From Bacteroidales bacterium (GTDB lineage Bacteria; Bacteroidota; Bacteroidia; Bacteroidales; UBA932): a stretch of DNA of 56,579 bases. The notes beneath the pieces were generated by a model that did no database searches, was not told the DNA's origin, and saw only the letters and a list, made by a program, of their open reading frames with translations. The translations under genes and the position numbers were made by a program. Every line of letters starts with the position of its first letter. The stretch's first letter is position 1. Below are positions 2,636 through 46,811 of this stretch, one piece after another. The stretch spans positions 1-56,579 of the forward strand of contig JAFYZX010000002.1 in NCBI GenBank assembly GCA_017548505.1, given 5' to 3'.

Positions 2636-4758
2636 ATCTTCCTGAAATTCAGCAGCAGCGAGTTGCTGACAACGCATACGCTGGAGGCGGCCATAGCTGC
2701 GCCTGCAATCATCGGATTAAGCATAAAACCGTTAACCGGGAATAGAACACCTGCTGCTACAGGTATTGCAATCACATTATAGACAAATGCCCAGAAAAGG
2801 TTCATTTTAACGGTCTTCACCGTTTGGCGGGATAGTCTTATCGCTGAGGAAAGTTTCCTTAAATCAGAGCCCGTGAGGGTGATTTTTGCGGCATCCATAG
2901 CAATGTCGCTGCCGCTGCCCATCGCGATGCTGACATCCGCTCTTGCAAGCGCAGCGGAGTCGTTGATGCCGTCTCCAACCATAGCAACCTTTTTGCCCTT
3001 TGCCTGAAGCTCTCTTATGAACTTTTCCTTGTCTGCAGGAAGCATTGAAGACCTCACTTCCCTGATGCCGCATTCCTCAGCGATAGCCTTAGCGGTCAGA
3101 GGATTATCTCCTGACAGCATCACCACTTCCATTTCCAGATCCTGAAGTTCCTTTATGGCCTGCTTAGATGTTTCCTTAACCTTGTCCGCTACTGCAATAA
3201 CAGCCAACAGTTCTGTATTGAGTTCATTGTGTTCTGTCTGTTTTTCGCTGTTTATTTCACTCAAATTCTTGGCAGAGAAATAGACAACGGTCTTTGCCTG
3301 AGTTTCATACTCTTTGGCCTTTTCAAGAATTGACGCGGAAATTTCTATGCCTTCATTTTCCATCAGGGCAAGATTGCCTGCAAGGAATTTCTTTCCTTCA
3401 TAAACGCAGCTTGCTCCCTTTCCCGGGAAGTTCTTCACGCCGGTAACTTCCGTATGCGGATAATGCCTTGCAATTGCATCAGCAACAGGATGCTGGGAAA
3501 GGGCTTCCATTCCGCCCAGAATACCACTCAGCAAATTCTTTGCATCTGTATTCAGCTCTTGCAGACCGCCTATGTCAAACTTGTCATTCCAGTATACATC
3601 TGTGACTTCTGGATGTCCTGAAGTAAGAGTTCCAGTCTTGTCCAGTGCCACTACATCTGTTTTGCGGAAATTCTCCAGGGCCTCGGCATCTTTGATCAGT
3701 ATGCCGTTCTGCGCTCCCTTTCCGATGCCCACCATAATGGCGGTAGGGGTGGCAAGCCCCAGGGCGCAAGGGCAGGCGATAACCAGCACCGTTACCAGAG
3801 TTAAGATGGAATGTATCAGATAGTTGTTGCCGGTTGCCATACCGCAGACGTTCCAGACTATGAACGCCAGAACTGCTATGCAGATAACCGCAGGAACAAA
3901 CACAGATGCAATCTTGTCTGCAAGCCTTTGGCTAGGGGCGCGGCTTCCCTGCGCCTGACGGACAAGCTCTATTATCTGGGCCAAAGATGTTTCGGCTCCT
4001 ACTTTCTCTGCCTTGAAGGTGAAGCTTGCTGTCTGGTTGATGGTGCCTGCAAACACCTTGTCTCCAGCCTTTTTCTCAACCGGTATGCTTTCTCCGGTAA
4101 GCATGCTTTCATCCACATAACTTTCTCCTTCCACAACAGTTCCGTCCACTGCAATCTTCTCCCCCGGCTTCACCACCACAATATCTCCAACCGCCACATC
4201 CTCAATGCTGACTTCAATGTAACTGCAAACGCTCTTACCCTCCGGATTTTCCGCAGGCTGGGAGCAAAAACCCTCCAAAACGCTCTTACCCTCCGGATTT
4301 TGCGCAGGCTGGGCGCACTCCTTGCGCTGGAGGATCGTAACTTTCTTGGGCTGGAGACCTGCCAGGCGCCTTATCGCTGAGGAAGTTGAAAACTTGGCCC
4401 TTTCCTCCAGCAGCCTTCCCAGAAGAATGAAGGCGATGATAACCGCGCAGGATTCAAAGTACACGTGGCTTTCAAGGCCGCGGCTGGTCCAGACAGAAGG
4501 GAACAGTGTATTGAACACGCTGAAAAGATATGCCACTCCGGTTGAAAGCGCTATCAGCGTATCCATATTGGCGTGGCCGTGCTTTGCCTGTTTCCAGGCA
4601 TTTACGTAGAAGTCCCGGCCAAAGAAAACAATGGAGATTGTGGCCAGCACCCACATTATGAGATTTGCAGTAATTGTTGAAAGGTGAAAACCGCCTATGG
4701 ATAGACCTGTGGAATGACTGGCAGATGAAAAGTCGCTGAGACTTCCCATTGAAGACAT
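2632..4758 (-). CDS. copA: Copper-translocating P1B-type ATPase, main part
   Basis: Exports Cu(I) across the inner membrane. Visible family motifs in order: [10 protein letters not shown] (M2), [10 protein letters not shown] (actuator domain), [13 protein letters not shown] (CPC metal site in the membrane), [11 protein letters not shown] (phosphorylated Asp), SQHP (nucleotide domain), [11 protein letters not shown] (hinge), and a C-terminal YN plus MAASS region typical of Cu+ pumps. The ATG at 4758 lies inside the first membrane helix, so it is unlikely to be the real start: the same frame continues upstream as [20 protein letters not shown], which completes that helix, back to the A10 tract at 4825-4834. 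The HMA domain is encoded upstream in another frame (see the slippery site). A duplicated insert disrupts the region before the actuator domain. Its stop overlaps that of the convergent gene. Confidence 0.95.
4227..4320. repeat. 51-base tandem duplication inside copA (in-frame insert)
   Basis: Two copies of about 37 nearly identical bases start at 4227 and 4278, period 51 bases (17 codons). On the coding strand both give the peptide C[AS]QPA[QE]NPEGKSV. The insert separates KKVTILQ from [17 protein letters not shown], positions that are nearly adjacent in other Cu-ATPases, so about 30 residues have been added without breaking the frame. The added peptide has cysteines just before each QPA. 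It looks like an intragenic repeat element rather than a functional domain; that is an inference. Confidence 0.8.
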
Positions 4759-4779
4759 TCCGATGAAAACTATGGGTAT

Positions 4780-4795
4780 GGCGATGATTATCGCC
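4780..4795 (-). other. Hairpin spanning the copZ stop codon
   Basis: On the minus strand GGCGAT-AATC-ATCGCC forms a six-base-pair stem with a four-base loop. The 0-frame UAA of the HMA ORF (4788-4790) lies in the loop and first paired base. It starts 28 bases after the slippery heptamer, farther than the usual 5-9 bases for a frameshift stimulator, so its role is uncertain. Confidence 0.4.
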
Positions 4796-5078: not shown

Positions 5079-5096
5079 ATTTTAGTATTCCCAATC

Positions 5097-5104
5097 CAAA
5101 GATA
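5097..5104 (-). promoter_or_regulatory. Promoter -7 box of the copper operon
   Basis: Minus strand reads TATCTTTG, an exact match to the Bacteroidota -7 consensus TAnnTTTG, 18 bases before the copZ ATG. No convincing TTTG -33 box is seen. No copper-sensor operator is recognised. Confidence 0.6.
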
Positions 5105-5121
5105 CTAATCTATTTTGAAAT

Positions 5122-6219: not shown

Positions 6220-7542
6220 TTAAAACTCTTTGTGGATTCTTTCCATCAGGTCTGGGATAGGGAGGTGCTGAGGGCACTTTGCAAGGCATTCCTGGCAGCC
6301 AACGCAGGTTTCTGGGCCGCCGCCCTGGGCGAATTCCTTGCGGAAAGCATCGGCGAACGCGGCCTTCTTCTTTGCGTATTCGCTCTCGCTCTGAGTCTCT
6401 TTGTTAGGAACGTTTCCGTCCATGACAAGCTTATTGTAAGTTGCGAATACTGAAGGGATTTCAACCTCGAATGGGCAAGGCATGCAGTAGCGGCAAGCGG
6501 TACAGTTGATTCTCTTGTAGCTCTGGTATTCCAGGATGGCCTTCTGGAGAGTTGTCTGCTCGTCAAGACTCAGAGGCTTGAAGTTGGTGTAGCTCTTGAG
6601 GTTATCCACCAGATGCTCCATATAGGTCATTCCGCTCAGCGATACCAGCACATTTGGAAGGCTTCCAAGATACCTGAAGGCCCAGGACGCTATGCTGAGA
6701 TCCGGATTCTTGTCCTTGAGGATCTTGTTGGCGCTGTCAGACAGGCTGGCGAGCCTTCCGCCCAGCAGAGGTTCCATGATTATGGCCGGAATCTTCCTTT
6801 CAGCCAGGGAGTTGTAAAGGTACTCCCCATCCTCTTTCCAGTCTATGTAGTTGAGCTGGATCTGCACGAAATCCCACGGATGCTTGTCAATGACATAATC
6901 CCAGCAAGCACGGTCTGAATGGAAGGAGAAACCGAGGTTCTTGATCCTTCCCTTGCGCTTCTGCTCAGCCAGATACTCGTATCCGCCAAACTCCTCGTAC
7001 ACCTTTTCGTAGCTGCTCTGCTTGGAGATGGAGTGCAGCAGATAATAGTCGAAGTAATCCACCCCGCATCTCTGGAGCTGCTCTTCAAATATTCTCGGAA
7101 TATCCTCTTTGCTGTTGATTGCAAACGTAGGCATCTTGTCTGCAAGCAGCCAGGTGTTTCTCGGATATTTTTTGAGAGCATTGCCGATAACGCCTTCGCT
7201 CTTTCCTCCGTGGTAAATGTATGCGGTATCGTAGTAGTTGATGCCGTGAGCGTATGCATAGTCCACCAGCTCTTCTGCCTTAGGCACATCTATAGGAGCG
7301 GTTCTGCCTTTTCCGATAGTAGGGAATCTCATGCAGCCGAAACCGAGCATGGAAACCATCTCTCCATTCTTGTAGTTTAGCCTTTTGTCAACAGGGGTGA
7401 TGTCTCCGTCCAGGGCCTTGGCCTGGAGGTTGGTCAGGAACGGGTTGTTCTTGAAGGAAACGGTGCTGGCCGCCAGTGCGGCTGCTCCCAAGCCCATAAG
7501 TTTCAAAGCCTTTCTTCTGCTGATGTCTTTGTTGTCTTTCAT
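6220..7542 (-). CDS. Tat-exported aldo/keto reductase with C-terminal 4Fe-4S domain
   Basis: 440 residues. The N-terminus carries a twin-arginine signal (SRRKALKLMGLGAAALAAS), so it is exported folded, with cofactor. Then an AKR barrel: GFGCMRFP (about 68), NYYDTAYIYH with the catalytic Asp/Tyr (about 100), and YYLLHS (about 168). The C-terminal part has CTACRYCMPCP and CVGCQECLAKCP, which bind two 4Fe-4S clusters. This is a common anaerobe architecture, likely a periplasmic or membrane-associated electron-transfer reductase; substrate unknown. Last gene of an operon with the L,D-transpeptidase (48 bases upstream); a terminator follows. Confidence 0.9.
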   Translation of the reverse strand: MKDNKDISRRKALKLMGLGAAALAASTVSFKNNPFLTNLQAKALDGDITPVDKRLNYKNGEMVSMLGFGCMRFPTIGKGRTAPIDVPKAEELVDYAYAHGINYYDTAYIYHGGKSEGVIGNALKKYPRNTWLLADKMPTFAINSKEDIPRIFEEQLQRCGVDYFDYYLLHSISKQSSYEKVYEEFGGYEYLAEQKRKGRIKNLGFSFHSDRACWDYVIDKHPWDFVQIQLNYIDWKEDGEYLYNSLAERKIPAIIMEPLLGGRLASLSDSANKILKDKNPDLSIASWAFRYLGSLPNVLVSLSGMTYMEHLVDNLKSYTNFKPLSLDEQTTLQKAILEYQSYKRINCTACRYCMPCPFEVEIPSVFATYNKLVMDGNVPNKETQSESEYAKKKAAFADAFRKEFAQGGGPETCVGCQECLAKCPQHLPIPDLMERIHKEF

Positions 7543-7590: not shown

Positions 7591-8148
7591 TCAATCGGGG
7601 AGGATGGTTACAGGCATTCCCACCCAGGCATAGTTTTCCTTGAGGTGGATAATGTCCTCGTCGCGGAGGCGGATACAGCCCTCGCTGCCCCTTCCCGGCA
7701 CGCTTTCCTCGTTATTGGTGCTGCCGTGGATACCTATGCCGCTCCATTTGTAGGTATTGAGCCTGAGAAACCACTTGCCGTATGAAAGGATGCTGCCCCT
7801 TCCGTCTCCGAAATCGTGCTTCCAGTAGCCGGAAGGCTGGATCTGGGAAATCTTGAAAGGCTTTCCCTCAGGCGATTCGGGAGTTCTCATATCTCCTTTC
7901 TTCTGTTTGTTGCCTGGGTTCTTTCCCACACATACAGGATACTCGGCGATGAGGGTTTTCTCTCCCTTGACCTTTGCATACACGTAAAGTTTAAACTCCT
8001 TTTTGGAGATCACGATGTATGAAGTGCTTTTTGGGAACGTGCCGGTAAAATGGACTATCCTTTCCACTTTCTTGTCCTGGGAAAAAGCGTTAAGGCTGCA
8101 GCACAGAAATGCCGCAGCCATAACGAACGCTTTTGCAATGAATTTCAT
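7591..8148 (-). CDS. L,D-transpeptidase (YkuD family), exported
   Basis: 185 residues with a signal peptide (MKFIAKAFVMAAAFLCC, cleavage near AFSQ). The YkuD domain starts at YIVISKKEFKLYVYAKV and ends with the active-site signature HGSTNNEE...SEGCIRL, with Cys as nucleophile. Such enzymes form 3-3 cross-links in peptidoglycan or attach proteins to it, in the periplasm. It lies 15 bases after the DUF4890-like gene and upstream of the reductase, apparently in one operon. Length is at the short end of the family and no LysM or PG-binding module is present. Confidence 0.9.
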   Translation of the reverse strand: MKFIAKAFVMAAAFLCCSLNAFSQDKKVERIVHFTGTFPKSTSYIVISKKEFKLYVYAKVKGEKTLIAEYPVCVGKNPGNKQKKGDMRTPESPEGKPFKISQIQPSGYWKHDFGDGRGSILSYGKWFLRLNTYKWSGIGIHGSTNNEESVPGRGSEGCIRLRDEDIIHLKENYAWVGMPVTILPD

Positions 8149-8163: not shown

Positions 8164-8730
8164 TTAGTTGGCAGGCTGCTGAGGAGGACGCTGGCCCTGA
8201 GGAGGGCGCTGTCCGCCAGGACGGTTACCGCCGTTTCTCATCTTCCTCATGCGGTCCATCATCTCTTTCTGCCTCTGCGCTTCCAGTTCCTCGTACTTTG
8301 CATACTGCTCGTCGGAGAGAACTTTCCGGATTTTCTTGTCGCATCTTTCCCTGGAGGCCTTGACCTGTGCCTGGGTGCCGCTCATCTCGGTCTTTGTTTC
8401 CCTTCTGCCGTTCATTCCCTCAGGAGGTCTCACGCCGCCGCTGCCGCCCGGTCTCATTCCACCGGGACGCATTCCGCCAGGTCTTCCCTGAGGCATAAGG
8501 TTGGCCACTTCCTTTTCCCTGTTGAGGATGGCTTTGTAAACCTTCTTGAACTGCTTTTCAGTAAGGTTGAGTTCCTTGTTGAGCCTGTCTGTCTGCATCT
8601 GGGCCCTTTCTTTTGGAGTAGTCTGTTTAGGACGTTCTCCACCTGGTCCAGGTCCCTGAGGTCTGTCCTGAGCCATTATCGCCGAGAAAGACAATACCAG
8701 GGCTGCTGCCATCAATAAAAATCTTTTCAT
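8164..8730 (-). CDS. Exported DUF4890/Spy-like protein, Pro/Gly/Arg-rich
   Basis: 188 residues. Signal peptide MKRFLLMAAALVLSFSAIMAQ, then two LTxxQ-like helices (LNLTEKQFKKV near 55 and LSDEQYAKYEEL near 140), the pattern of Spy/CpxP-type periplasmic proteins and of DUF4890. Between and after them are low-complexity stretches (GGMRPGGMRPGG, GQRPPQGQRPPQ). A role as a periplasmic chaperone or stress protein is inferred from the fold only. Sits 11 bases after the CCA-enzyme fusion gene and 15 before the L,D-transpeptidase, on the same strand. Confidence 0.75.
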   Translation of the reverse strand: MKRFLLMAAALVLSFSAIMAQDRPQGPGPGGERPKQTTPKERAQMQTDRLNKELNLTEKQFKKVYKAILNREKEVANLMPQGRPGGMRPGGMRPGGSGGVRPPEGMNGRRETKTEMSGTQAQVKASRERCDKKIRKVLSDEQYAKYEELEAQRQKEMMDRMRKMRNGGNRPGGQRPPQGQRPPQQPAN

Positions 8731-8741: not shown

Positions 8742-10568
8742 TTATGTGTTTATGTGCTTAAGTCCGAGTTCCGCACCTTTTTCCTTCATCAGTCCAAAGG
8801 CCTGGTCAAAGTTGTTTTCAATCTTTCCGTCCAGTATGGCTTCCTTCACGTATTCCTTGATTATACCGATTTCTTTCCCTGGGCCTATCCCGTAGTACTC
8901 CATCACAAGTTCTCCGGTAATCGGGTTCTTGAAGTTGCGGATGGCATCCTTTTCCTCCACCTCCACGAGTTTCTGCCTTACCAGCTGGAAGTTGGATTTC
9001 AGGCGGCGCACCTTTGCCTCGTTCTTGGAGGTTATGTCCGCATTGCAGAGAATCATCAGGTCATCGATATCGTCTCCCGCATCAAACAGAAGCCTCCTAA
9101 CCGCGGAATCCGTTACGGCATCTTCCACTAGGGCTATTGGTCTCAAATGCAGTGCCACAAGTTTCTGAACGTACTTCATCTTCTCGTTCAGAGGCATCTT
9201 CATCTGCTTGAAAATGCCGGGCACCATCCTGGCTCCCACCACTTCGTGGCCGTGGAATGTCCAGCCGGCTGTGCTCTCGTATCTTTTGGTTGCAGGCTTT
9301 CCGATGTCGTGCAGCAGTGCTGCCCACCTGAGCCAGAGGTTATCTGACTGCTCCGCGACATTGTCAAGAACCTGGAGGGTATGCGCAAAGTTCTCCTTGT
9401 GGCCCCGGCCTTCCATAGTCTCCACTCCCTGAAGCGCGGAAAGCTGCGGCAGGAACTCTTCCAGAAGGCCTGTCTGCTGCAGAAGATTCAGTCCGATAGA
9501 AGGTTTTGGAGCAAGAAGAATCTTGTTCATTTCCTCGGCGATCCTTTCTCTGCTGAGTATCTCCAGCCTTCCTTTGTTTCTCTTTATGCTCTCGATGGAT
9601 TCCGGAACGATGGTGAAGTTAAGCTGGGTGGCAAACCTTATTGCGCGTATCATCCTCAGCGGATCATCGGAATAGGTGATATCCGGATCCAGAGGAGTCC
9701 TGAGCAGGCCTTTCTGAAGGTCAGCCACTCCCCCGAACGGATCCACGAGGTTTCCGTAGTCTTCTTTCTGCAAGGAGAATGCAAGGGCGTTGACGGTGAA
9801 GTCCCTCCGCTTCTGGTCATCTTCGAGCGTTCCGTCTTCCACAATCGGCTTTCTGGAATTGCGGTTGTAGGATTCCTTCCTTGCTCCCACAAATTCTATC
9901 TCCACGCCGTTATGTTTCAGCATCGCGGTGCCGAAGTTCTTAAACACGCTGACCTTGCTTCCCACTTTTTCTCCAACCGCCTGGGCTATCTCTATGCCGC
10001 TTCCTTCCACCACCACATCTATGTCGTTCCTCGGCCTCTGGAGGAAGCAGTCACGCACAAAGCCTCCGATCACAAAGGCCCTGACACCGTGCTCGGCGGC
10101 TGTCTCTGATATTACCTTGAATATCTTGTCTTTCAGGAATATGTCGTTTCCTCCTGTCATCTTTTCCTCTTTCTTTTCTTCATCGTAAGCAGGTATGTCG
10201 CCGATGAAGACATATTGCTTTTTCTCCTCATCATAGCGGCAGGCAAAAGTTTCCTTGCCGTTTGTCGCCACAATGTATTCCACCTTGAGTATCAGGGCAT
10301 AGTTCCATATCTGCTCAAAGGTCTTGGAAGAAATCTTGACATTCGGCCTCTTGCACTCCACAATCATCTTAGGACTAAGGTCCTTCCCGTAGCATACGAT
10401 ATCGCAGCGCAGCTTTACATCTCCGATGGAGATTTCCGTCTCGCTGCCTATCATGTGCATCGGCCAGCCCCGCCTCTCGTTCAGGTAGCGGATAAACTGC
10501 TGGCGGACATTTTCCTCCGGCGTAAGGGCCACGTATTTCTTCCTCAGCGGGTCAAATACTTCTTCCAT
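8742..10568 (-). CDS. cca: HsdR_N nuclease-like domain fused to CCA tRNA nucleotidyltransferase
   Basis: 608 residues with two parts. Residues 1-135 are an HSDR_N_2-type PD-(D/E)xK domain: LRCDIVCY then MIVECKRP supply the D...ExK core. From about residue 150 (DIFLKDKIFKVISE) it is a class II CCA-adding enzyme/poly(A) polymerase: FVIGGFVRD, RNDIDVVV (metal Asp pair), RRDFTVNALA, DDPLRMIRAIRFA, then an HD domain (LLHDIGKPAT, HEVVGA). It adds or repairs the CCA end of tRNA; the role of the first domain is unknown. ATG 10568 is preferred because a TATATTTG box ends 10 bases before it. An internal ATG (MTGGND) at the junction could also give a separate CCA enzyme. Elsewhere in Bacteroidota I know the HsdR_N gene as free-standing next to holA, as it is placed here. 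Confidence 0.85.
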   Translation of the reverse strand: MEEVFDPLRKKYVALTPEENVRQQFIRYLNERRGWPMHMIGSETEISIGDVKLRCDIVCYGKDLSPKMIVECKRPNVKISSKTFEQIWNYALILKVEYIVATNGKETFACRYDEEKKQYVFIGDIPAYDEEKKEEKMTGGNDIFLKDKIFKVISETAAEHGVRAFVIGGFVRDCFLQRPRNDIDVVVEGSGIEIAQAVGEKVGSKVSVFKNFGTAMLKHNGVEIEFVGARKESYNRNSRKPIVEDGTLEDDQKRRDFTVNALAFSLQKEDYGNLVDPFGGVADLQKGLLRTPLDPDITYSDDPLRMIRAIRFATQLNFTIVPESIESIKRNKGRLEILSRERIAEEMNKILLAPKPSIGLNLLQQTGLLEEFLPQLSALQGVETMEGRGHKENFAHTLQVLDNVAEQSDNLWLRWAALLHDIGKPATKRYESTAGWTFHGHEVVGARMVPGIFKQMKMPLNEKMKYVQKLVALHLRPIALVEDAVTDSAVRRLLFDAGDDIDDLMILCNADITSKNEAKVRRLKSNFQLVRQKLVEVEEKDAIRNFKNPITGELVMEYYGIGPGKEIGIIKEYVKEAILDGKIENNFDQAFGLMKEKGAELGLKHINT

Positions 10569-10643: not shown

Positions 10644-11684
10644 ATGGCACAGAAAGTGGACAAGGAAGCGTCGGTAAGGAAGTTTTCCGAGATTATGGAC
10701 AATATCCGCAACAAAAAGTTTGCACGGATGTATGTCCTTGCGGGTGAGGAGCCTTATTACTCCGATGTAATCATAGATGCCCTCAACTCTACAGTTCTGG
10801 ACGAGAGCCAGAAAGATTTCAACCTGAGCATTGTCTATGGCAACGAGACCGATGCCGGGCAGATTGTCTGCCTGTGCCGAAGGTATCCTGTTGCCAGTCC
10901 TTATCAGCTGATTATCGTCAAGGAGGCTCAGCAGCTTTCCAGCCTTCAGCCTTTCGAGTATTACCTGAAAGTTCCTGCTCCGGATACTATTCTGGTCCTG
11001 AGTTTCACAGGCAAGAATCTGGACAAGCGTACAGGTTTCTACAAAAGCCTGAAGGACAAGGCGGAGGTACTGGAATCCTATCCTCTGGACGAGTGGAAGG
11101 TTCCGCAGTGGATTACAGATTATGTGAGGGAAAAGGGCTATTCCATCGATCCTGACGCAGCCCAGCTTCTGGCCCAGAGTGCTGGTGCATCTCTGAGAAA
11201 GATAGTCCTTGAGATAGACAAGCTCTTCAAGGGCACGGACGGCACTGTAATCAAGGTCAAGGACGTTGAGGTGAATATCGGCGTTTCCAGAGACTACAAC
11301 CCGTTCGAGCTTTGCAAGGCAATCAGCGAGAGGAACATGATGCGTGCTTTCTCAATCGCTGAGGTATTTGCTTCCAATCCCAAGAAATACCCGATTCAGG
11401 CCACTCTCGGCGCCATGTTCTTTTATTTCAACCAGCTTCTTACGGTCGAGGCGGAACTTAGCGCAGGGGAAAGAGACTTCTACTCCGCCTGCCAGAGGGC
11501 CGGAGTCTTCGGAACCCAGAGAGTCAGGGAATACCAGACTGCAGCCAGAAACTTCCCGCTGAAAAAGACCATGGGCGTAATTTCCCTGATCAAAGACACG
11601 GACCTCAAGTCCAAGAGCAACTATGGCGGCAACTCCACAGACGGAGCCCTTCTGAACGCCCTTCTGACAAAGCTTTTTGTATAG
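10644..11684 (+). CDS. holA: DNA polymerase III delta subunit
   Basis: Clamp-loader subunit that opens the beta clamp during replication. The 346-residue protein has the expected N-terminal YVLAGEEPYYSDVIIDAL, the P-loop-less AAA fold with ...TILVLSFTGKNLDKRTGFYK (about 112-131), and the C-terminal collar helices (NPFELCKAISERNMMRAFSI). Length is typical. The start is fixed by the promoter, whose -7 box ends four bases before the ATG. Convergent with the DUF4143 ATPase, with only two bases between the stop codons. Confidence 0.92.
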   Translation: MAQKVDKEASVRKFSEIMDNIRNKKFARMYVLAGEEPYYSDVIIDALNSTVLDESQKDFNLSIVYGNETDAGQIVCLCRRYPVASPYQLIIVKEAQQLSSLQPFEYYLKVPAPDTILVLSFTGKNLDKRTGFYKSLKDKAEVLESYPLDEWKVPQWITDYVREKGYSIDPDAAQLLAQSAGASLRKIVLEIDKLFKGTDGTVIKVKDVEVNIGVSRDYNPFELCKAISERNMMRAFSIAEVFASNPKKYPIQATLGAMFFYFNQLLTVEAELSAGERDFYSACQRAGVFGTQRVREYQTAARNFPLKKTMGVISLIKDTDLKSKSNYGGNSTDGALLNALLTKLFV

Positions 11685-13787: not shown

Positions 13788-13810
13788 AAAACTAACTATA
13801 TATAAGATAT

Positions 13811-16441: not shown

Positions 16442-16589
16442 TTGTTTTTTGTTCGCCAACGCAATATAATGAAAAGAATTTTAAAATGAAAGTTTTTGCT
16501 TTTTTTTTCTAAAAATTTTGAATTTGAAGGGCTAAATTGTTTGCGTTGTGAAACACAGATGTTACAAAATTGACAATTTTTAAATAAAA

Positions 16590-31852: not shown

Positions 31853-31863
31853 ATCGCTGAGGA
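31853..31863 (+). repeat. Copy of the recurrent word ATCGCTGAGGA
   Basis: Ten exact copies are found in the window: plus strand at 2840, 4373, 15903, 31853, 37655, 38470, 41825 and 43788; minus strand at 3074-3084 and 46604-46614. This copy is intergenic. Close variants include ATCGCCGAGGA at 9532 (minus), 18105 and 29174, and ATCGCTGAGGT at 11355. The copies fall in different codon frames, so protein sequence does not explain them. Confidence 0.8.
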
Positions 31864-33906: not shown

Positions 33907-34875
33907 TCAGTGGCAGTCCTCGTCGTCGCAATCGTGATGATGATGTTCCTCTTCTTCCTCTTCTTCCTCTTTCGGAGGTTCCGGGATGTTGCACATATAG
34001 ATGCGTAGGAAGGATGAAGAAGGGTTGTCGCCATCCTGGCTCGGAGAGATTGTCAGTTCCTGGATGTCGTGAGGGATTAGGACGAGGCTTATAGGACCGG
34101 CTGCTAAATGGTTGCTGGTATTTGAGTGTATGCTGTCCAGGGTGATGCAGGTCTCGTCAGAGATTTCTGTATATCCCCTTAAGTCTTTTACCTTCAGAGA
34201 TGTCTGGTTGTCCAGGTTGAAAATGGCCATGAAGCTTTCCGTCTGGTCCGGAGCGATGGTCTGCGGTTTGGTGATGGCAACTCTCTCCATCCTGAAAAGG
34301 CATTCTTCCGGAGCCACATATTCCGGATTGGAGGCGTTGAGGTTTATGAAGTCAAGGGCTTCTACCAGCTGGTCCGTTTCCCCGATGTTGAAGTCACAAG
34401 GGGAGTTCTGGGCCACTTCCACATATCTTACGCCTTCTCCGACACGGAATGGGACGCCCGGGCGGATATAGAAGGTTTCTCCCTCTTCCGGTCCGATTTC
34501 GTTCATAGTCTCCAGAATGGTTCCGGAGATGCTTCTTTCATAGATGTCCGTTGCTGTAAGGTCTTTCTTGAAACCAATCCAGATGGACGAGTCTTCCTTT
34601 GCGGAAAGTATGTAGAGCATTCTCTCCTTTCCCCAGTTTCCGTAGCGTGGAAGGGCTGTCTCGTCATCAGGAGAAACAGTTATATTACCGGGTTCATCGC
34701 AGAGCTTTACCGTTATAGGCAGATTACCCTGGAAATAGCTGAATACCTTGTCGCCGAGCAAATTGCCCATATAGGTGTCTATGAGGTCTTCCAGGGAGTT
34801 GTCCTTGAGAAAGCCTTTGAGTGCGGTGCTCTCGGGGGTTATGCCGTCCAGCAGAAGGGGATATATCTTTTTCAT
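33907..34875 (-). CDS. Mannose-6-phosphate isomerase-like cupin protein with acidic/His tail
   Basis: 322 residues. GNWGKERMLYIL...IWIGF and GPEEGETFYIRPGVPFRVG, then VEVAQNSPCDFNI, follow the order of the class I phosphomannose isomerase cupin core (YIL, G-x-T-F-x-I-P-x-G, E-x-x-Q-x-S-D). The usual His of 'PAGTVHA' is Arg here, so the metal site may be lost. The last 22 residues are eight Glu, four His, then alternating Asp, Cys and His (ending CDDEDCH), a potential metal-binding tail. Overlaps the CPBP gene stop by one base (TAATG) and precedes the S4 gene by 28 bases. Confidence 0.5.
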   Translation of the reverse strand: MKKIYPLLLDGITPESTALKGFLKDNSLEDLIDTYMGNLLGDKVFSYFQGNLPITVKLCDEPGNITVSPDDETALPRYGNWGKERMLYILSAKEDSSIWIGFKKDLTATDIYERSISGTILETMNEIGPEEGETFYIRPGVPFRVGEGVRYVEVAQNSPCDFNIGETDQLVEALDFINLNASNPEYVAPEECLFRMERVAITKPQTIAPDQTESFMAIFNLDNQTSLKVKDLRGYTEISDETCITLDSIHSNTSNHLAAGPISLVLIPHDIQELTISPSQDGDNPSSSFLRIYMCNIPEPPKEEEEEEEEHHHHDCDDEDCH

Positions 34876-37204: not shown

Positions 37205-38550
37205 ATTCCTGTATAATTCCCAGGCGTGACGGAAAGCATCTCTTTTTTTACGCTTTCCTTTATTTTCAGCCCCTTTACAAACTCCGCGATACTTTCCCTT
37301 GTGACCTTGGTGTTGACTCTGGTCAGTTCCTTAAGGGTTTCGTACGGATGCGGATAGCCCTCTCTGCGGAGGATTGTCTGAAGGGCCTCCGCCACAACGG
37401 CCCAGTTGTCTTCCAGGTCGGCGTTCAGTTTCTCTTTGTTGAGAATCAGCTTGCCAAGGCCTTTCTCCAACGATTTGAGAGCTATGATTGTATGAGCCAA
37501 AGGCACTCCCACGTTCCTTAATACGGTTGAGTCCGTAAGGTCTCTCTGCATCCTGGAAACCGGAAGTTTGGAGCTCAGATGCTCAAACACGGCGTTGGCC
37601 ACTCCGAGGTTTCCCTCCGCGTTTTCGAAGTCAATAGGATTAACCTTGTGAGGCATCGCTGAGGAACCCACTTCTCCTGCCTTGATCTTCTGCTTGAAAT
37701 ATTCCATCGAGATGTAAGTCCATACATCGCGGCAGAGGTCTATCAGTATTGTGTTGATTCTCTTGAGATTGTCAAACAGGGCGGCAAGGTTGTCGTAATG
37801 CTCGATCTGGGTTGTAGGATAGGAGCGTACCAGACCGAAGGCATCCTTCTGGAATGTGGTGGCGAACTTGTTCCAGTCGATTTCCGGATAGGCCACCTTG
37901 TGGGCGTTCATGCAACCCGTGGCGCCTCCGAACTTGGAGCAGTAAGGTACGGTCTTCAGGAGCTTGAGCTGCTTGTCCAGCCTTTCCACGAATACCTTTA
38001 TCTCCTTGCCAAGACGGGTAGGGGAAGCCGGCTGACCGTGGGTATGGGCCAGCATCGGAACGTCCTTCCACTCCTTCGCATAGTCTTCCAGAATCTTCTT
38101 TACTTCCAGAAGCTGAGGAAGATACACATTCTCCACGCCCTCCTTCAGGCTCAGAGGCACGGCCGTGTTGTTTATGTCCTGGCTGGTAAGCCCGAAGTGT
38201 ACGAACTCCTGGAACTTCTCTATCTTCAGCCTCTTGAATTCCTCCTTTATGAAGTACTCCACTGCCTTGACATCGTGGTTTGTGATTTTCTCGATATCCT
38301 TCACCTTCTGCGCCTGCTCAATAGTAAGATCCTTGTAAATCTTTCTCAGCGACGCGAACTTGCCCTTCGGGAAGCCCTTCAACTGAGGAAGAGGGATGCT
38401 ACAAAGAGCGATGAAGTATTCGATCTCCACCCTGACACGGTATCTTATGAGCGCATACTCTGAGAAAAAATCGCTGAGGATTTCTACTTTGTCGTGATAT
38501 CTGCCGTCGATTGGAGAAACGGCGGTAAGTGCCTGAAATGCCTTATCCAT
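37201..38550 (-). CDS. purB: Adenylosuccinate lyase
   Basis: 449-residue enzyme of purine synthesis: it splits SAICAR and adenylosuccinate to release fumarate. SPIDGRYHD at the start, LAHTHGQPASPTRLGKEI (His), and SSAMPHKVNPIDFENAEGN, the fumarase-superfamily signature, near residue 290. The start is 21 bases after a TAAATTTG box. Two copies of ATCGCTGAGGA lie in it (37655 and 38470), one overlapping the signature codons. Its stop overlaps that of divIC. Confidence 0.97.
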   Translation of the reverse strand: MDKAFQALTAVSPIDGRYHDKVEILSDFFSEYALIRYRVRVEIEYFIALCSIPLPQLKGFPKGKFASLRKIYKDLTIEQAQKVKDIEKITNHDVKAVEYFIKEEFKRLKIEKFQEFVHFGLTSQDINNTAVPLSLKEGVENVYLPQLLEVKKILEDYAKEWKDVPMLAHTHGQPASPTRLGKEIKVFVERLDKQLKLLKTVPYCSKFGGATGCMNAHKVAYPEIDWNKFATTFQKDAFGLVRSYPTTQIEHYDNLAALFDNLKRINTILIDLCRDVWTYISMEYFKQKIKAGEVGSSAMPHKVNPIDFENAEGNLGVANAVFEHLSSKLPVSRMQRDLTDSTVLRNVGVPLAHTIIALKSLEKGLGKLILNKEKLNADLEDNWAVVAEALQTILRREGYPHPYETLKELTRVNTKVTRESIAEFVKGLKIKESVKKEMLSVTPGNYTGI

Positions 38551-40176: not shown

Positions 40177-41643
40177 ATGTTCTGGAAGTTGTTGAGAAAA
40201 GCGGCCCGTTACCTGGTTGGAATAGTGTTCATCGCTTCGGGTTTCCTGAAGGGAGTGGATCCGGTCGGCACATCGCTGAAGGTGAAGGAATATTTCCATG
40301 CTTTTCTGGGGATGGATCCGGGGCATTGGGCTCTTTGGCTTGGGATTGCGCTATGTGCTGTGGAGTTCCTGACGGGAGTCTGCATCCTCAAGGTTATCAA
40401 GTTCCGTTTCTTCTCTCTGATAGCCCTCCTTATGAGCCTGTTTTTTGCGGGAGTTACACTCTATTCCGCCATAACGGGCAAGGTGGAGGACTGCGGTTGC
40501 TTCGGGGATGTGATCCATCTGGAGCCTTGGCCGTCTTTCTACAAGAACGTTGTGCTTGTGGCGCTTACGGCATATCTCTACAGCCAGAGGCACAGGGCCC
40601 GTCCGATAGCCGGTAACTTCTGGCAGTGGGCCTTTATGCTGGGCTATGCTGTTTTCATTGTTGGCCTTGCGGTCTACTCGATGAGGGAACTTCCTCCGGC
40701 AGACCTGACTGATTTCCGCCCGGGAAGAGACCTTTTCAAGGGAGATTCCACGGCTCTTGTCAAATACAAGACAGAGATAATCTACTCCAAGGATGGAGTC
40801 CGCAAGTCTTTCAGCCTCAACCATCTTCCGGATTCAACCTGGAAATACGAGGAAACAATCTCCACAGTTGTAGAAGGCAGCGAGAAGGTTGCAAGGCAGA
40901 TGCCATTCCTCCTGAAGGATGCCGCAGGAGAAGATGTTACGGAATCCGTGCTCAAAACCGAGGCTCCGCTGGTTTTCATATCATTCTACGATGCTTCCAC
41001 GATAACTCCGGATGATCTTGGCAAGCTTAAAAATCTCGGCGATTCACTAAGCCAGGGGAGTTCTCAGCGATTGAGCCATACCATAAGCGCCTTGAACTCC
41101 GATGATGCTACAACCGCTCAGAAACCCGATTATTCTTCAAGTGCCCTGGGTTTTATTGATGCTTTCTCTTCCTCGAGTCTTGGAGCCCAGGTATATGTGC
41201 TAAGCGCAATGACTGAGGATGAAACTGTCAAAAGCCTCCAACCCATCGCTGATGCCATTGAAAAAGAGGCTATCTCAGATGTATTCTCTTCTTCCTATAC
41301 GCAAAGGAGCCTGCCGTTCAGAATAGTGTACTCGGATTTCAAATCCGTGATTACCTTCAACCGCTCCAACGGTGGGGCCACATACGTGAACAAGGGAATC
41401 ATCGTGAAGAAATGGAGTGCCGCCAAATACTCCAACACCAAGATCATCTCTGCCATAACCAAAAATCCATACATGCTCACCAAGGGCAGCGAGGAACACT
41501 CAAGAGTCTTCCTGATAGTTTCCCTGGCAATCATCATTGGTATGGCGCTGATTATAAGATTAATATTCAAAGCCATCTACAAGACCGTCAAAGGCACCGT
41601 GGATGTCCTCGAGAAGATAGGAGATGACGATAATCAAAATTGA
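40177..41643 (+). CDS. DoxX/MauE-like membrane protein (BT_3928 family)
   Basis: 488 residues. The N-terminal ~160 residues hold four membrane helices with GIVFIASGFLKGVDPVGT and VEDCGCFGD, the CxC-type motif of DoxX/MauE-like proteins thought to handle thiol redox. The middle and C-terminal parts form a large soluble domain, then a C-terminal helix VFLIVSLAIIIGMALIIRLI. This long form is common in Bacteroidales and of unknown role; a periplasmic disulfide function is a guess. It overlaps the first in-frame ATG of the next gene. Confidence 0.75.
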   Translation: MFWKLLRKAARYLVGIVFIASGFLKGVDPVGTSLKVKEYFHAFLGMDPGHWALWLGIALCAVEFLTGVCILKVIKFRFFSLIALLMSLFFAGVTLYSAITGKVEDCGCFGDVIHLEPWPSFYKNVVLVALTAYLYSQRHRARPIAGNFWQWAFMLGYAVFIVGLAVYSMRELPPADLTDFRPGRDLFKGDSTALVKYKTEIIYSKDGVRKSFSLNHLPDSTWKYEETISTVVEGSEKVARQMPFLLKDAAGEDVTESVLKTEAPLVFISFYDASTITPDDLGKLKNLGDSLSQGSSQRLSHTISALNSDDATTAQKPDYSSSALGFIDAFSSSSLGAQVYVLSAMTEDETVKSLQPIADAIEKEAISDVFSSSYTQRSLPFRIVYSDFKSVITFNRSNGGATYVNKGIIVKKWSAAKYSNTKIISAITKNPYMLTKGSEEHSRVFLIVSLAIIIGMALIIRLIFKAIYKTVKGTVDVLEKIGDDDNQN

Positions 41644-41647
41644 TAGT

Positions 41648-42766
41648 ATGAAATTCAACCTGAGAGTTTTTATTGTTCTGCTGGCATTATGCCCGGCGAT
41701 TGCATTGATTTCATCCTGTGGCACTTCCGTCAATGTTCCCCATACGGAAACTGTAACTCAGGTTTACGGCAGCCCGTTTGACGGTGCTCCTCAGATATTT
41801 TCCAGATATCTGCCTTCCTCAGGAATCGCTGAGGATTCAAAGATAAAGTTCCAGACCTCTTCTACCGAAAAGGGCCTGAAAGTGATGAATTACCACTTCG
41901 AGTCTCTGTTTGGCTCTCCCCAGGATATTTCTGTCATAGAGATAAATCCACGGATGTACAGGTTCAATGTGGCTAATCACGTTAAACTTGTCCGGACATC
42001 TGAGATTGCTTCGGAGGCCGGGGCCGTTGCCGCAATGAACGGAACGTTTTACGATATGAAGAAAGGCGGAAGCGTCTGCTATCTCCAGATAGATGGCGTT
42101 GTTGCGGACACTACCAAGGGCAAGGATATGAAAGTAAGGGCAAACGGAGCGGTTGTAATTAAAAAGGGGAAACTTTCCGTGGAGCCTTGGAACGCAGATA
42201 AAGAAAGCATCTACAAAGAGCGCTTTTTGAAAGGATTAAACAGAATCGGCTATCCAGAAGAAACAAGACATTCTGAATCGGTCAATGCAGTTCGTTCCGG
42301 TTATGGTTCTGGAGTCATACGTTCTCAGAAAAATGTTTCCATAATGGCTACCATGCCTCTTTTGATCAAGGATGGATATGCCGTTGAACTGCCTTATTAC
42401 AAAGGCTTTTCAGACAAGCGTCATCCTCGCAGCGTGGTCTTTGAGAAAGATGGCAAGATCTGCCTGATGGTAATTGACGGCCGCAGCAAGGGCAATGCAG
42501 CAGGTATGACTCTGGATGAAGTTCAGCGATACTTGCTTTCCATGGATGGAGGCAAGGGCTGCCAAAACGCTGTGAATCTGGACGGCGGCGGATCCTCCAC
42601 CCTCTGGCTGAAACCTTCATCTGGTGAAAAATACTCTAATGGAGCTATAGCCCCGGAAGCTTCAATACAGGGAACAGGGGTAATTAACCATCCATCCGAT
42701 AACGGCAAGTTTGACCATAAAGGAGAACGCCGAGTCGCCAACTCCATAATCGTTCTCCGCAAGTAG
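41648..42766 (+). CDS. Phosphodiester glycosidase family (NAGPA-like) lipoprotein
   Basis: 372 residues from MKFNLRVFIVLLALCPAIAL, whose ISSC is a lipobox; the earlier ATG (41624) lies inside the previous gene. The NAGPA domain follows: AAMNGTFYDMKKGG near residue 127, GVVADTTKGKDM, RSVVFEKDGKICLMVIDGRS, and NLDGGGSSTLWL near 315. Family members remove covering GlcNAc or act on phosphodiester-linked sugars of the cell envelope. A copy of ATCGCTGAGGA lies at 41825 (codons IAED). Followed by a strong hairpin that also starts the RAYT region. Confidence 0.85.
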   Translation: MKFNLRVFIVLLALCPAIALISSCGTSVNVPHTETVTQVYGSPFDGAPQIFSRYLPSSGIAEDSKIKFQTSSTEKGLKVMNYHFESLFGSPQDISVIEINPRMYRFNVANHVKLVRTSEIASEAGAVAAMNGTFYDMKKGGSVCYLQIDGVVADTTKGKDMKVRANGAVVIKKGKLSVEPWNADKESIYKERFLKGLNRIGYPEETRHSESVNAVRSGYGSGVIRSQKNVSIMATMPLLIKDGYAVELPYYKGFSDKRHPRSVVFEKDGKICLMVIDGRSKGNAAGMTLDEVQRYLLSMDGGKGCQNAVNLDGGGSSTLWLKPSSGEKYSNGAIAPEASIQGTGVINHPSDNGKFDHKGERRVANSIIVLRK

Positions 42767-42906: not shown

Positions 42907-43013
42907 GCGTTTTTCTCTTCAAAAAAACTTTTTAACTTTACGCCCAAAGAATGGATCTAAGCTCTGCTTTAGGTTCGATAATTCTAAGTTTCATCATTTT
43001 AAGAGGGGGCGGT

Positions 43014-43811
43014 ATGAAGGGCTTTCAAATAAATTCTTCCATTAGAAACAATTCCAATACTCGGCGATTAAACGGCTATGGAATTGCCCGGTCTGTTTAT
43101 TCAAGTTATCATATTTATCAGCGAAGTCACGACAAATCTAACATATTCCATTCAGGTAAAGACGCTTTGGTATTCATCTCTATAGTCAAGCTCAAGGCTA
43201 TGAAGTTGGGCGTTGCTGTCTATGCAATATGTTTGATGGATAATCATATTCACATGCTGGTTAAGGTGCGAGACAGGACCGCTTTGCGCAGGTTCGTAAC
43301 TGATTATACTTCCATGTTTGTCAAGGCCTACAACAAGAGATACAACAGGGAAGGTTTATTGTTCTCGTCTCCTTTTGGCAGGGCATACAAGAAAACAGAT
43401 AAATATGTCCGGAATTGCATTTCTTACATTAACAATAATCCGGTGGAAGCGGGCAAGACAAAGAGCATAGAGGAGTATATGTGGAACATGTTCTCTTTCG
43501 GAAGAACAAGCCACCCTCACTCAGAGGCATTGAATATGTCTAAATCAAGGTATTTTATGCGATGTTGTTGCCGAAGCTTGAGGTCAGAATATTCGAGAGG
43601 ACGTTACACGTCTTACGAGCTCTTGGATGAGTTGTTTTCGAGAACTGACAAAAAAGAAACTGAACAACTTCTTGATTATATCCTTGATTTATACAATCCG
43701 GTTGATTACTCTGCGATGTATAGATTGTTCGGAAGTTTTGACAAGGCTGCACTGGCTATGAATTCTTATACAGGATCTGAATATGATATCGCTGAGGATG
43801 ACAGGCTGTAA
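43014..43811 (+). CDS. REP-associated tyrosine transposase-like protein (Y1_Tnp, RAYT)
   Basis: 265 residues from ATG 43014; ATG 42951 (286 residues) adds a non-conserved N-terminus. The HUH pair is in MDNHIHMLVKV (about residue 78) and the Tyr is expected in the helix DYTSMFVKAYNKRYNREG (candidate Tyr about 105-118), followed by LLFSSPFGRAY as in RAYTs. It is a single-strand DNA transposase related to IS200/IS605, here flanked by two similar structured elements at 42801 and 43924, the arrangement of REP-RAYT systems. The C-terminal region (SRTDKKETEQLLDYILDLYN) is family-specific. The gene ends with a copy of ATCGCTGAGGA. Confidence 0.85.
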   Translation: MKGFQINSSIRNNSNTRRLNGYGIARSVYSSYHIYQRSHDKSNIFHSGKDALVFISIVKLKAMKLGVAVYAICLMDNHIHMLVKVRDRTALRRFVTDYTSMFVKAYNKRYNREGLLFSSPFGRAYKKTDKYVRNCISYINNNPVEAGKTKSIEEYMWNMFSFGRTSHPHSEALNMSKSRYFMRCCCRSLRSEYSRGRYTSYELLDELFSRTDKKETEQLLDYILDLYNPVDYSAMYRLFGSFDKAALAMNSYTGSEYDIAEDDRL

Positions 43812-44050: not shown

Positions 44051-44076
44051 GGCGTGTAGCCAACAGCATACACGCC
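44051..44076 (-). terminator. Terminator of the nusA-infB operon
   Basis: GGCGTGT / ACACGCC with a 12-base loop, flanked by AAA and TT on the right sides, 27 bases past the infB stop on the minus strand. Confidence 0.65.
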
Positions 44077-44102
44077 CTTCCACGTTAGTTCTGAGATCCT
44101 TT

Positions 44103-46811
44103 TTACAAGGTTCTCTTGATTTCCTCGATCTTGTAGGCCTCGATTACGTCGCCTTCCTTGATATCGTTGAAGTTCTCGATACCAAGACCGCAGTCGTAGC
44201 CGGAAGCAACTTCCTTGACGTCGTCCTTGCCTCTCTTCAGGGAAGCCAGAACACCTTCCTTGATAACGATACCGTCTCGGATGACCCTGATCTTGGCGGT
44301 TCTTGTGATCTTGCCTTCCTTGACCATACAGCCGGCGATTGTACCGACCTTGGAGATCTTGAAGGTCTGCCTTACTTCCAGAGTTGAGGTGACAACCTCT
44401 TTCTCCACAGGGGCAAGCATACCCTCGATACCGCTCTTGACCTCGTTGATTGCATCGTAGATGACTGAGTAGAGGCGGATTTCGATTTCCTCCTTCTCGG
44501 CCATCTTCCTGGCGTTCATACTTGGGCGAACCTGGAAGCCGATGATGATAGCCTCGGAAGCCTCTGCCAGCAGAACGTCGCTCTCGGAGATTTCTCCAAC
44601 GGCCTTGTGGATGACATTCACCCTTACCTCTTCGGTAGAGAGTTTGATCAGGGAATCGGACAGAGCCTCGATAGATCCGTCCACGTCTCCCTTGACGATG
44701 ATGTTGAGTTCCTTGAAGTTGCCGATGGCGATTCTTCTTCCGAGCTCTTCCAGGGTGATGTGCTTCTGGGTTCTCAGGCCCTGGATTCTAAGAAGCTGCT
44801 CACGCTTGTTGGCGATTTCCCTTGCATCCCTTTCGTTATCGAAGATGTTGAAGGTATCGCCAGCCTGAGGAGCACCGTTCAGGCCGAGAACGGAAACAGG
44901 AACGGACGGGCCGGCTTCCTTGATCTTTTGTCCTCTTTCGTTGAACATAGCCTTAACCTTACCGGTATACATACCTGAGAGCATGATGTCTCCGGTGTGG
45001 AGAGTTCCGCCCTGGACCAGAAGGGTTGCAAGATAGCCTCTACCCTTGTCCAGAGAGGACTCGATAACTGTTCCTACGGCTTTCTTATGAGGATTTGCCT
45101 TGAGGTCAAGCATATCGGCCTCAAGCAGAACCTTGTCCAGAAGGTCGGAAACACCGATTCCCTTCTTAGCGGATATTTCCTGGCACTGGTACTTGCCGCC
45201 CCAGTCCTCAACCAGGATGTTCATCTGGGAGAGCTGTTCGCGGATCTTGTCCGGCATAGCGCCCGGCTTGTCTATCTTGTTGATGGCGAAAATCATCGGA
45301 ACGCCGGCAGCCTGGGCGTGGTTGATGGCCTCGATTGTCTGAGGCATCACTGCGTCGTCTGCGGCAACGATGATAATCGCAAGGTCAGTCATCTTGGCAC
45401 CACGGGCACGCATAGCGGTAAACGCTTCGTGGCCAGGGGTATCCAGGAAGGTGATTCTCCTTCCGTTAGGAAGCTTCACGTTGTAGGCGCCGATGTGCTG
45501 GGTAATTCCACCGGCCTCACCGGCAATCACGTTGGACTGGCGGATGTAGTCCAGCAGGGATGTCTTACCGTGGTCCACGTGACCCATCACGGTAACGATA
45601 GGGGCCCTTGGCTCCATATCCTCCGGCTTGTCCTCCTCAGTTTCCTCCTTGATTGCTTCCTGGATTTCAGCGGAAACGAACTCGATCTTGTAACCGAAAT
45701 CTTCGGCTACGAGAGTAAGTGCATCGGCATCCAGTCTCTGGTTGATGGAAACCATAAGACCGAGGTTCATGCAGGCGCTGATAACCTTGGTTACAGGCTG
45801 GTCTATCATCACGGCCAGATCGTTGACCGTAACAAACTCGGTGACCTTGAGGATGTTGCTCTCCAGGCCTCTGCGCTGGATCTCCTCCTCTCTCTTTTCC
45901 TCCGCGATTTCTCTCTTTTCCCTTCTGTACTTGGAGCCCTTGGTCTTGCCCTTGCCCTCTACCATTCTCTGGTAGGTTTCCTTTATCTGCTTCTGTACCT
46001 CGTCCTCATCTACCTCGTTGCGGATTGGCTTGAATCCCTTCTTGCCTTTCTTGTCCTTTGCCTTCTTGGCTGCCTCGCGGTTCTGGTTGGTTTCCTTGGT
46101 GATGTCCACCTTCTCCTTTGTGTTCTTCTTGATTCTCTCTCTCTTTCCGCCGCTCTTCTTCTTAGGGGTCTCAAACTTGGAAAGGTCTATCCTCTGGCCT
46201 GTATCCTTAGGACCCTGGAGCTGCTCCACCTTAGTCTCGATGAAGTTGCTTGGAGTCTCCTCTTTCTTCTGAGGCTCAGCCGGTTTCTCAACAGGTTCGG
46301 CAGGTTTTTCCACTTTTGGCTCGGCGACAGGCTTTTCCTCCTTCTTGACTTCCTCTTTCTTCTTGGCAGCAGCCTTTGGAGCCTTCTCCTCCTTCTTCTT
46401 CTCCGGAGCCTTTTCCTCAGCGGCCGGTTTAGGGGCTTCTTCTTTCTTAGGCTCTGCCTTTTCCTTCTTGCCGGAAATCTTGTCGAGGTCAATCTTGCCT
46501 ACGATAGTCGGTGCCTTAGGAGTTTCCACGGCAGTTTCTATGAAGTTGTCCTTAGGCTTTTCTTCCTTTTCCAGCTGGTATGTCTTCTTGTCGCTCTCGG
46601 AAATCCTCAGCGATCCTGCTATCTTCTTTGCGTCTTCCTTCACCTGCTGCTGCCCAAGGAATTCCTTCTGCACCAGGGCGAGGGTTTCCTCATCGAGCTT
46701 CGCATTAGGATTGGCCTCCACACTCTTTCCTTTCTTTTCAAGGAAATTGATGAGGGTGCTCATTCCTATGTTGTAGTCTTTGAGGACTTTACTAATTCTC
46801 ATTCCTGCCAT
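44103..46811 (-). CDS. infB: Translation initiation factor IF-2
   Basis: 902 residues; GTPase that brings fMet-tRNA to the ribosome. The start is [20 protein letters not shown], with the IF2_N helix bundle, then about 270 residues of Lys/Glu/Pro/Ala-rich linker. The G domain has [15 protein letters not shown] (G1), [15 protein letters not shown] (G3), NKIDKPGA (G4); domains II, III and IV follow to ...[12 protein letters not shown]. The Lys/Glu-rich linker makes long antisense frames that are not genes. 26 bases after nusA, with the terminator downstream. A copy of ATCGCTGAGGA lies near residue 67 (in codons GSLRI, not IAEE). Confidence 0.97.

Follow-up and report, generated by a model that had tools for sequence, protein, structure and literature searches.

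The 11-base word ATCGCTGAGGA occurs ten times in the window, by which we mean the whole of the 56,579-nucleotide contig JAFYZX010000002.1 of a Bacteroidales bacterium (UBA932 lineage; assembly GCA_017548505.1, here G000). The over-representation, which an earlier note on this DNA had reported, is real, and the word is enriched at the level of the DNA. It is the best form of a shorter, orientation-neutral core, [A/G]TCGC[N]GAG, and sister genomes of the genus carry other forms, or dialects. Comparison of these sequences leads us to propose, tentatively, that the word may be this clade's version of a self-recognition motif that runs through the whole genome and acts like a DNA uptake sequence. 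The earlier note had likened the word to Chi recombination words, to polar words of the KOPS (FtsK-orienting polar sequence) type and to uptake sequences. That interpretation is partly supported: the KOPS part falls, as the core lacks polarity, while the uptake and Chi parts both stand as candidates, the uptake type being favoured because of the dialect structure.

The assembly comprises 1.985 Mb in 115 contigs and is 85.8% complete; the window is contig 115. A NusA search placed the genome within Bacteroidales, and its nearest neighbours are metagenome-assembled genomes (MAGs), many from rumen samples (near relatives by NusA include RGIG7951, RGIG10221, RUG13464 and Tb.RUG.340). We worked with sequence samples: 418 kb of G000 (21%, window included), 26 to 480 kb from each of 12 other genomes, and short gene loci from G019, G020, G030, G031, G035 and others. 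Genes were called with a simple codon-usage script, not a standard gene finder, and in counts of dispersed words repeats of the same word less than 400 bases apart were removed.

A dispersed core enriched at the DNA level

All ten exact copies were recovered where the earlier note had placed them.

2840..2850, plus strand: exact word ATCGCTGAGGA, opposite strand of the P-type ATPase gene 2632-4758(-)
3074..3084, minus strand: exact word ATCGCTGAGGA, sense strand of the P-type ATPase gene 2632-4758(-)
4373..4383, plus strand: exact word ATCGCTGAGGA, opposite strand of the P-type ATPase gene 2632-4758(-)
15903..15913, plus strand: exact word ATCGCTGAGGA, opposite strand of open reading frame (ORF) 15425-16459(-)
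31853..31863, plus strand: exact word ATCGCTGAGGA, intergenic, between a rubrerythrin ORF and the ribosomal L25 gene
37655..37665, plus strand: exact word ATCGCTGAGGA, opposite strand of the adenylosuccinate lyase gene 37201-38550(-)
38470..38480, plus strand: exact word ATCGCTGAGGA, adenylosuccinate lyase gene 37201-38550(-), in a frame other than that of the 37655 copy
41825..41835, plus strand: exact word ATCGCTGAGGA, sense strand of the NAGPA-family gene 41624-42766(+)
43788..43798, plus strand: exact word ATCGCTGAGGA, 3' end of the RAYT-like transposase ORF 42951-43811(+)
46604..46614, minus strand: exact word ATCGCTGAGGA, sense strand of the IF-2 gene 44103-46811(-), in the third frame

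Eight of the ten lie inside called genes, where they take four placements relative to codons, and the copy at 31853 is intergenic, in line with the varied frames described in the earlier note. One-mismatch forms do add to the count: with one mismatch allowed the window holds 19 matches, whereas 100 shuffles gave 0.98 on average and never more than 3. In the whole G000 assembly the 11-mer has 90 copies, 41 on one strand and 49 on the other, and the reversed word has none. The 418 kb sample contains 40 copies, where Markov models of orders 1 to 5 predict 0.2 to 2.4. A genome-wide count close to the Markov prediction, one of the two outcomes by which the earlier note would have dismissed the word, was not observed. 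The exact word is dense in the window, which has 10 of the 90 assembly copies in 2.85% of the assembly.

Nor does the 11-mer, the word singled out in the earlier note, turn out to be the unit. Counts of neighbouring words, pooled over three genomes rich in the word (G000, G021 and G032), gave the importance of each letter. Altering T2, C3, G4, G7 or A8 abolishes the enrichment; A and G are both accepted at position 1, while C predominates at position 5 and G at position 9; position 6 tolerates any base, with T preferred and then C, and the last two positions, 10 and 11, are hardly constrained. This makes [A/G]TCGC[N]GAG the unit, with the 11-mer as its best form. This core has 289 sites in the G000 sample, one per 1446 bp and 21 times the Markov simulation, which extrapolates to about 1,400 sites in the assembly. 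The genomes G034 and G010, whose cores belong to the second dialect described below, have one core per 1246 bp (62-fold over simulation) and one per 1053 bp (9-fold), respectively. Core density in the window is ordinary, with 42 sites or one per 1347 bp. The genomes rich in the 11-mer also show an excess of a palindromic relative, TATCGCGA(TA).

Since the proteins encoded in the genes could in principle dictate the word, we shuffled synonymous codons within genes, which keeps both the proteins and the codon usage. The coding core count dropped 5.3-fold in G000, 6.7-fold in G032 and 5.5-fold in G021, and the core of the second dialect described below dropped 11-fold in G034. All six codon frames are enriched and non-coding DNA carries the word too, so the single coding frame that the earlier note named as grounds for doubt did not appear. 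The non-coding share is about proportional in G000 (40 of 289 sites, coding fraction 0.88), and non-coding DNA is over-supplied in G034 (72 of 321 sites, coding fraction 0.91). We consider it very improbable that the word is an artefact of codon pairs or protein composition, or a mobile repeat such as a repetitive extragenic palindrome (REP) or insertion sequence, even though the commonest frames encode common peptides (IAE, LSD) and the window holds a RAYT (REP-associated tyrosine transposase)-like ORF. A codon-pair effect is rejected on the six enriched frames, unlike the negative example GTCTATG, a control word with 92 of its 124 coding copies in G000 in one frame. A REP/RAYT element is rejected likewise: most sites are inside genes, and beyond the 11-mer almost nothing is common to the flanks of the 40 sampled copies, so a mobile repeat is not their source.

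Two observations stand beside these results. GTCTATG is 2- to 3-fold above its codon-shuffled expectation in the G000, G021 and G032 samples and looks like a codon-pair preference, being mostly in one frame. The RAYT-like Y1 transposase ORF (42951-43811, plus strand) has the exact word in its last codons and was missed by the gene-calling script.

The spacing of sites is near random (variance/mean 0.89 to 1.16). Their density rises with GC content in G021, G034 and G010 and not significantly in G032 or G000; since this dependence is inconsistent across genomes, avoidance of foreign DNA is only suggested.

The eight of ten exact copies on one strand, which the earlier note read as a strand bias, proved to be a small-sample effect, as the 42 core sites in the window divide 19 plus to 23 minus. 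On a 620 kb contig of G021, ATCGC[CT]GAG is found 66 times on the plus and 58 times on the minus strand, 56 times with and 58 times against genes; GC skew there is positive in 16 of 19 sampled stretches. The comparison of orientation with the replichores that the earlier note had called for revealed no strong polarity of the core forms: in the single-contig genome G034, 78 of 138 copies of TGTCGGGA are on the inferred leading strand (p 0.15, summed across stretches, with origin and terminus located by visual inspection of the GC skew), and no density gradient is visible along the chromosome. The core is thus orientation-neutral. A KOPS-type polar word, which would steer FtsK toward dif, would fit the eight-of-ten split; since that bias is not a property of the core motif, these polarity tests reject such a word, and we give it practically no credence.

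The following core sites and palindromic variants were located in the window.

4732..4740, plus strand: core site GTCGCTGAG
6635..6643, minus strand: core site ATCGCTGAG
7660..7668, plus strand: core site GTCGCGGAG
7942..7950, minus strand: core site ATCGCCGAG
8678..8686, plus strand: core site ATCGCCGAG
9351..9359, minus strand: core site GTCGCGGAG
9534..9542, minus strand: core site ATCGCCGAG
11355..11363, plus strand: core site ATCGCTGAG
17790..17798, minus strand: core site ATCGCCGAG
18024..18032, minus strand: core site ATCGCGGAG
18105..18113, plus strand: core site ATCGCCGAG
19238..19246, minus strand: core site ATCGCAGAG
20613..20621, plus strand: core site ATCGCAGAG
24376..24384, minus strand: core site ATCGCCGAG
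25586..25594, minus strand: core site ATCGCAGAG
28867..28875, plus strand: core site ATCGCTGAG
29174..29182, plus strand: core site ATCGCCGAG
29709..29717, minus strand: core site ATCGCTGAG
34696..34704, plus strand: core site ATCGCAGAG
34750..34758, plus strand: core site GTCGCCGAG
37282..37290, minus strand: core site ATCGCGGAG
38345..38353, minus strand: core site GTCGCTGAG
41035..41043, minus strand: core site ATCGCCGAG
41063..41071, minus strand: core site ATCGCTGAG
43060..43068, minus strand: core site ATCGCCGAG
43709..43717, minus strand: core site ATCGCAGAG
45900..45908, minus strand: core site ATCGCGGAG
46320..46328, minus strand: core site GTCGCCGAG
48126..48134, minus strand: core site ATCGCCGAG
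50149..50157, minus strand: core site ATCGCCGAG
51951..51959, minus strand: core site ATCGCCGAG
55915..55923, plus strand: core site ATCGCCGAG
2921..2928, no strand: palindromic variant ATCGCGAT
16310..16319, no strand: palindromic variant TATCGCGATA
19410..19417, no strand: palindromic variant ATCGCGAT

Dialects of the word and their descent

The 11-mer was counted in 61 genomes, 37 of the genus and 24 from other families of the order. Eleven of the 37 have 38 to 126 copies, five (G013, G024, G026, G030 and G036) have 3 to 11, and 21 have 0 to 2; the 24 genomes of other families have 0 to 6. Samples of genomes without this word show another, TTCCCGACA or TGTCGGGA. We refer to the 11 genomes rich in ATCGCTGAGGA as A genomes and to the 13 rich in TTCCCGACA as B genomes. 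The latter word has 80 to 498 copies in those 13 of 39 genus genomes (reversed-word controls, 11 to 40), and none of the A genomes is among them (8 to 21 copies against controls of 18 to 34). The boundary is soft and the threshold for a B genome arbitrary: G022, with 80 copies against a control of 40, is not stronger in fold than G015 (47 against 20), which shows a faint B signal, as do G031 (34 against 20), G002 (33 against 17) and G062 (19 against 9).

The main form of the A group is ATCGC[T/C]GAG and that of the second group is TGTCGGGA, while some genomes use chiefly the palindrome TATCGCGATA. This palindrome has 134 sites in G013, the only one among the samples in which it dominates, 19 to 50 in the 11 A genomes, 30 in G024 and 13 to 18 in G019, G026, G034 and G061. 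The B genomes have 0 to 3, apart from G034 (13) and G001 (6). According to neighbour counts the B form is C[T/C][G/A]TCG[N]GA in G034 and [C/T][T/C][G/A]TCGGGA in G010, where the central base is fixed as G, and G012 together with loci L083-L087 favours TGTCGGGAAG. TCG and GA are constant in all dialects, with an A spacer one base longer, and the A dialect also accepts TATCGCGA. G034 bridges the two groups: it contains 138 copies of TGTCGGGA (3.0 expected), 47 of TATCGGGA (4.4), 42 of TGTCGCGA (0.8) and 26 of TATCGCGA (1.1). A and B thus appear to descend from one motif. Among the named relatives (L079-L082), ATCGCGGAG occurs 8 times where 0.1 to 0.2 are expected.

These forms bear on a word like the cyanobacterial highly iterated palindrome HIP1, which would be a product of methylation, mismatch repair or chromosome organisation, carried out by a methyltransferase or DNA-binding protein with sequence specificity, and would play no part in uptake. 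HIP1 is a dispersed word at about one per kb, alternate HIPs replace it in some lineages with matching methyltransferases (PMC4390886, in excerpt), and a palindromic variant is enriched here too. The main A and B forms, however, are asymmetric, and neighbours such as ATCGTTGA are enriched, not depleted. In addition, the ratchet described in the excerpted part of the same paper requires a methylated GC step, and TGTCGGGA has no GC on either strand, although the A word does. Since this step is missing and the main forms are not palindromes, an origin of this kind is weakened, though no search aimed at methyltransferases was made, and we regard it as distinctly improbable.

Returning to the dialects, we built a ComEC tree from 30 of the 38 genomes with ComEC (30 loci cut out), inspecting 7 of the 30 reading frames. 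Several rows are long-branched, and the placement of G002 is meaningless because its row is a wrong ORF. Ten of the 11 A genomes cluster, and G033 joins them (support 80/97). A second clade (99/95) contains all ten B genomes in the tree as well as G008, G020 and G031, in which the words are scarce or absent. The dialects largely follow phylogeny. Sites are also retained at orthologous positions, about 1.8 to 3 times as often as control words. In the nusA region of eight A species the site is kept in 256 of 413 comparisons; random 9-mers are kept in 27% (16779/62471) and permuted words in 28 of 79. Among five B species it is kept in 82 of 120, with 23% (2413/10293) and 26 of 94 for the same two controls. 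Only sites with at least 60% local identity entered these tests, whose comparisons are not independent because the species share ancestry.

Several repeated words were encountered alongside the dialects. In pooled loci of other Bacteroidales families (L093-L148, 1.03 Mb) the A forms are not enriched; TGTCGGGA occurs 70 times where 25.7 are expected, scattered at no more than 4 per locus, and there may be a weak relative of the B word outside the genus. GCATCTGAAC, considered as a third dialect in G015, was rejected as a local array of inverted pairs. At L065:7610-8921 and 13620-14329 it forms a tandem array with a period of about 298 bases, whose units contain inverted pairs of GCATCTGAAC; 39 of 40 copies are outside called genes, and similar sites lie at L068:465-1172. 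This is possibly an integron-like or other cassette array. In G003 (L057-L060), 11-mers such as ATCAAACCACA and CGATTTCTACA have about 16 copies in 80 kb and disappear once close repeats are removed; they are possibly a CRISPR (clustered regularly interspaced short palindromic repeats) array.

Uptake or recombination

If the word acts in uptake, a surface or periplasmic DNA-binding protein would prefer word-bearing DNA, and homologous DNA would enter by way of ComEC, helped by a ComEA-like protein, DprA and ComM, before being recombined. Biased import would spread new copies of the word, and copies keeping pace with drift in the preference of the protein would give rise to dialects. What is seen here is what we would expect of such a process: dialects drift within the genus around a constant core, sites come at close to one per kb with little or no polarity, they are retained at orthologous positions, and some genomes have lost them. 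The word resembles the DNA uptake sequences (DUS) of Neisseriaceae and the uptake signal sequences (USS) of Pasteurellaceae in being a dispersed and strongly over-represented 9-12-mer with clade-specific dialects round a constant core and no replication-strand polarity. With a Neisseria genome of about 2.2 Mb, DUS density is about one per kb, similar to that seen here. The neisserial DUS has about 1900 copies per genome, its dialects follow phylogeny, the wadDUS variant arose by a one-base insertion, and some Neisseriaceae genomes have no obvious DUS, according to the excerpted text of PMC3630211. The present word differs in belonging to another phylum, in a central base that tolerates change in the A dialect and in G034, in its palindromic variant, and in the lack of a type IV pilus or type II secretion motor above cut-off in this genus.

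Family searches of the 39 genus genomes found ComEC in 38, DprA in 38, the ComM-type family PF13335 (Mg_chelatase_C) in 38 and HHH_3 proteins, a family not specific to ComEA, in all 39. One HHH_3 protein of G032 has a hydrophobic stretch at its N-terminus and matches the HHH_3 profile twice, as expected of a ComEA-like protein. Riemerella anatipestifer, of the same phylum, transforms by means of ComEC, DprA, ComF and RecA and also of proteins unlike known machinery, one of them with an HHH domain (PMC8459023, in excerpt). The ComEC of G000 and of G034, the two checked, consists of the Competence domain alone, a profile dominant in Porphyromonadaceae (PMC6299819, in excerpt).

A number of points weigh against an uptake function, the ComEC domain composition just mentioned among them. 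ComEC-like proteins are present in 89% of the bacterial proteomes surveyed in the excerpted part of PMC6299819, so that the presence of ComEC proves little; the inner competence genes as a set are not diagnostic of an uptake word, and the HHH_3 matches come from proteins of several sizes, of which the single one in G032 was examined. The motor family T2SSE (PF00437) is above cut-off in 0 of 39 genomes, in a search that did not include the pilin families themselves, compared with 13 of 14 control genomes; sub-threshold matches exist in 31 of the 39. The known type of receptor is therefore without its machine here, and, in the absence of a type IV pilus motor above cut-off, any receptor would have to be a protein other than ComP or ComN. 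No receptor gene was identified among the genomes examined. None of six families (ComEC, T2SSE, DprA, PDDEXK_1, HHH_3 and Mg_chelatase_C) separates word-rich from word-poor genomes, because the word-poor genomes keep these genes. In the ComEC tree the A genome G014 lies outside the A group, beside G013 on a long branch. Neisserial uptake words form terminator pairs, and our spacing test gave no excess of close word pairs. No uptake experiment was found in the literature, and the close relatives seen are MAGs. Lastly, the longer form ATCGCYGAGG departs from strict neutrality, with a mild, Chi-like leading-strand excess in the G021 contig (53/28, p 0.026 for 53 of 81 against a background of 0.53 for words of the same composition, counted from the site listing and in agreement with a separate count in three stretches compared).

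This last excess, together with the dispersal of the word, would suit a Chi site of the genus's AddAB, in which AddB would read the word as single strand, the nuclease would be attenuated and RecA loading would begin. Searches detected the AddB-type PDDEXK_1 domain in 38 of 39 genomes; many of these have another, weaker match a few kb away that, from its position, is probably AddA. Chi words are over-represented and dispersed and need not show strand bias, as in Pseudomonas (PMC5959072, in excerpt). The state of AddB itself varies. Among the 13 B genomes, 11 have an unbroken best nuclease match, and so do several word-poor genomes. Of the 10 A genomes with a match, 9 have one that stops after the first ~150 profile positions (G014, unbroken, is the exception; G029 has no match), and the match is broken in the same way in G001, G033, G034, G036 and G062. 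The broken match suggests an insertion. The difference between A and B genomes speaks for Chi, but G001 and G034 use B words with an A-like broken AddB, and G014 has the A word with an unbroken one. Moreover, G008 and G035 keep the AddB domain without any of the three words, as do G020, G031 and G015 with at most a faint B signal, although the soft B threshold (G022 compared with G015) slightly weakens this case. The G008 (56 kb) and G015 (60 kb) samples offer no comparably enriched word, though a shorter Chi could escape such a search; the best 8-mer in G008 has 8 copies where 0.6 are expected. Recognition would also have to shift within one genus, and the word is denser than Chi, for which the excerpt of PMC5959072 cites one per ~3 to 4.5 kb. 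Since G008 and G035 keep AddB without the words, and since a true palindrome is among the preferred forms, Chi is weakened, and we think it rather unlikely. If the word is nevertheless Chi, it would be an unusually fast-drifting one and, to our knowledge, the first Chi candidate in Bacteroidales.

The uptake interpretation, to which we incline, has a further corollary. Excerpts of PMC12616744 name only Neisseriaceae and Pasteurellaceae as known to discriminate by an uptake word, and among open-licence PubMed Central papers none by title concerns such a word in Bacteroidota. It is possible that these genomes stand for a third lineage in which sequence-specific uptake arose independently, one that belongs to Bacteroidota and lacks type IV pili, with a receptor reading TCG(N)NGA and dialects that isolate sister clades of a rumen genus. 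If so, sequence-specific uptake would have evolved again with another machine in Bacteroidales, the dialects would act as barriers to recombination among rumen bacteria, and there would be a direct route to a DNA receptor of Bacteroidota, as the protein whose sequence changes with the dialect.

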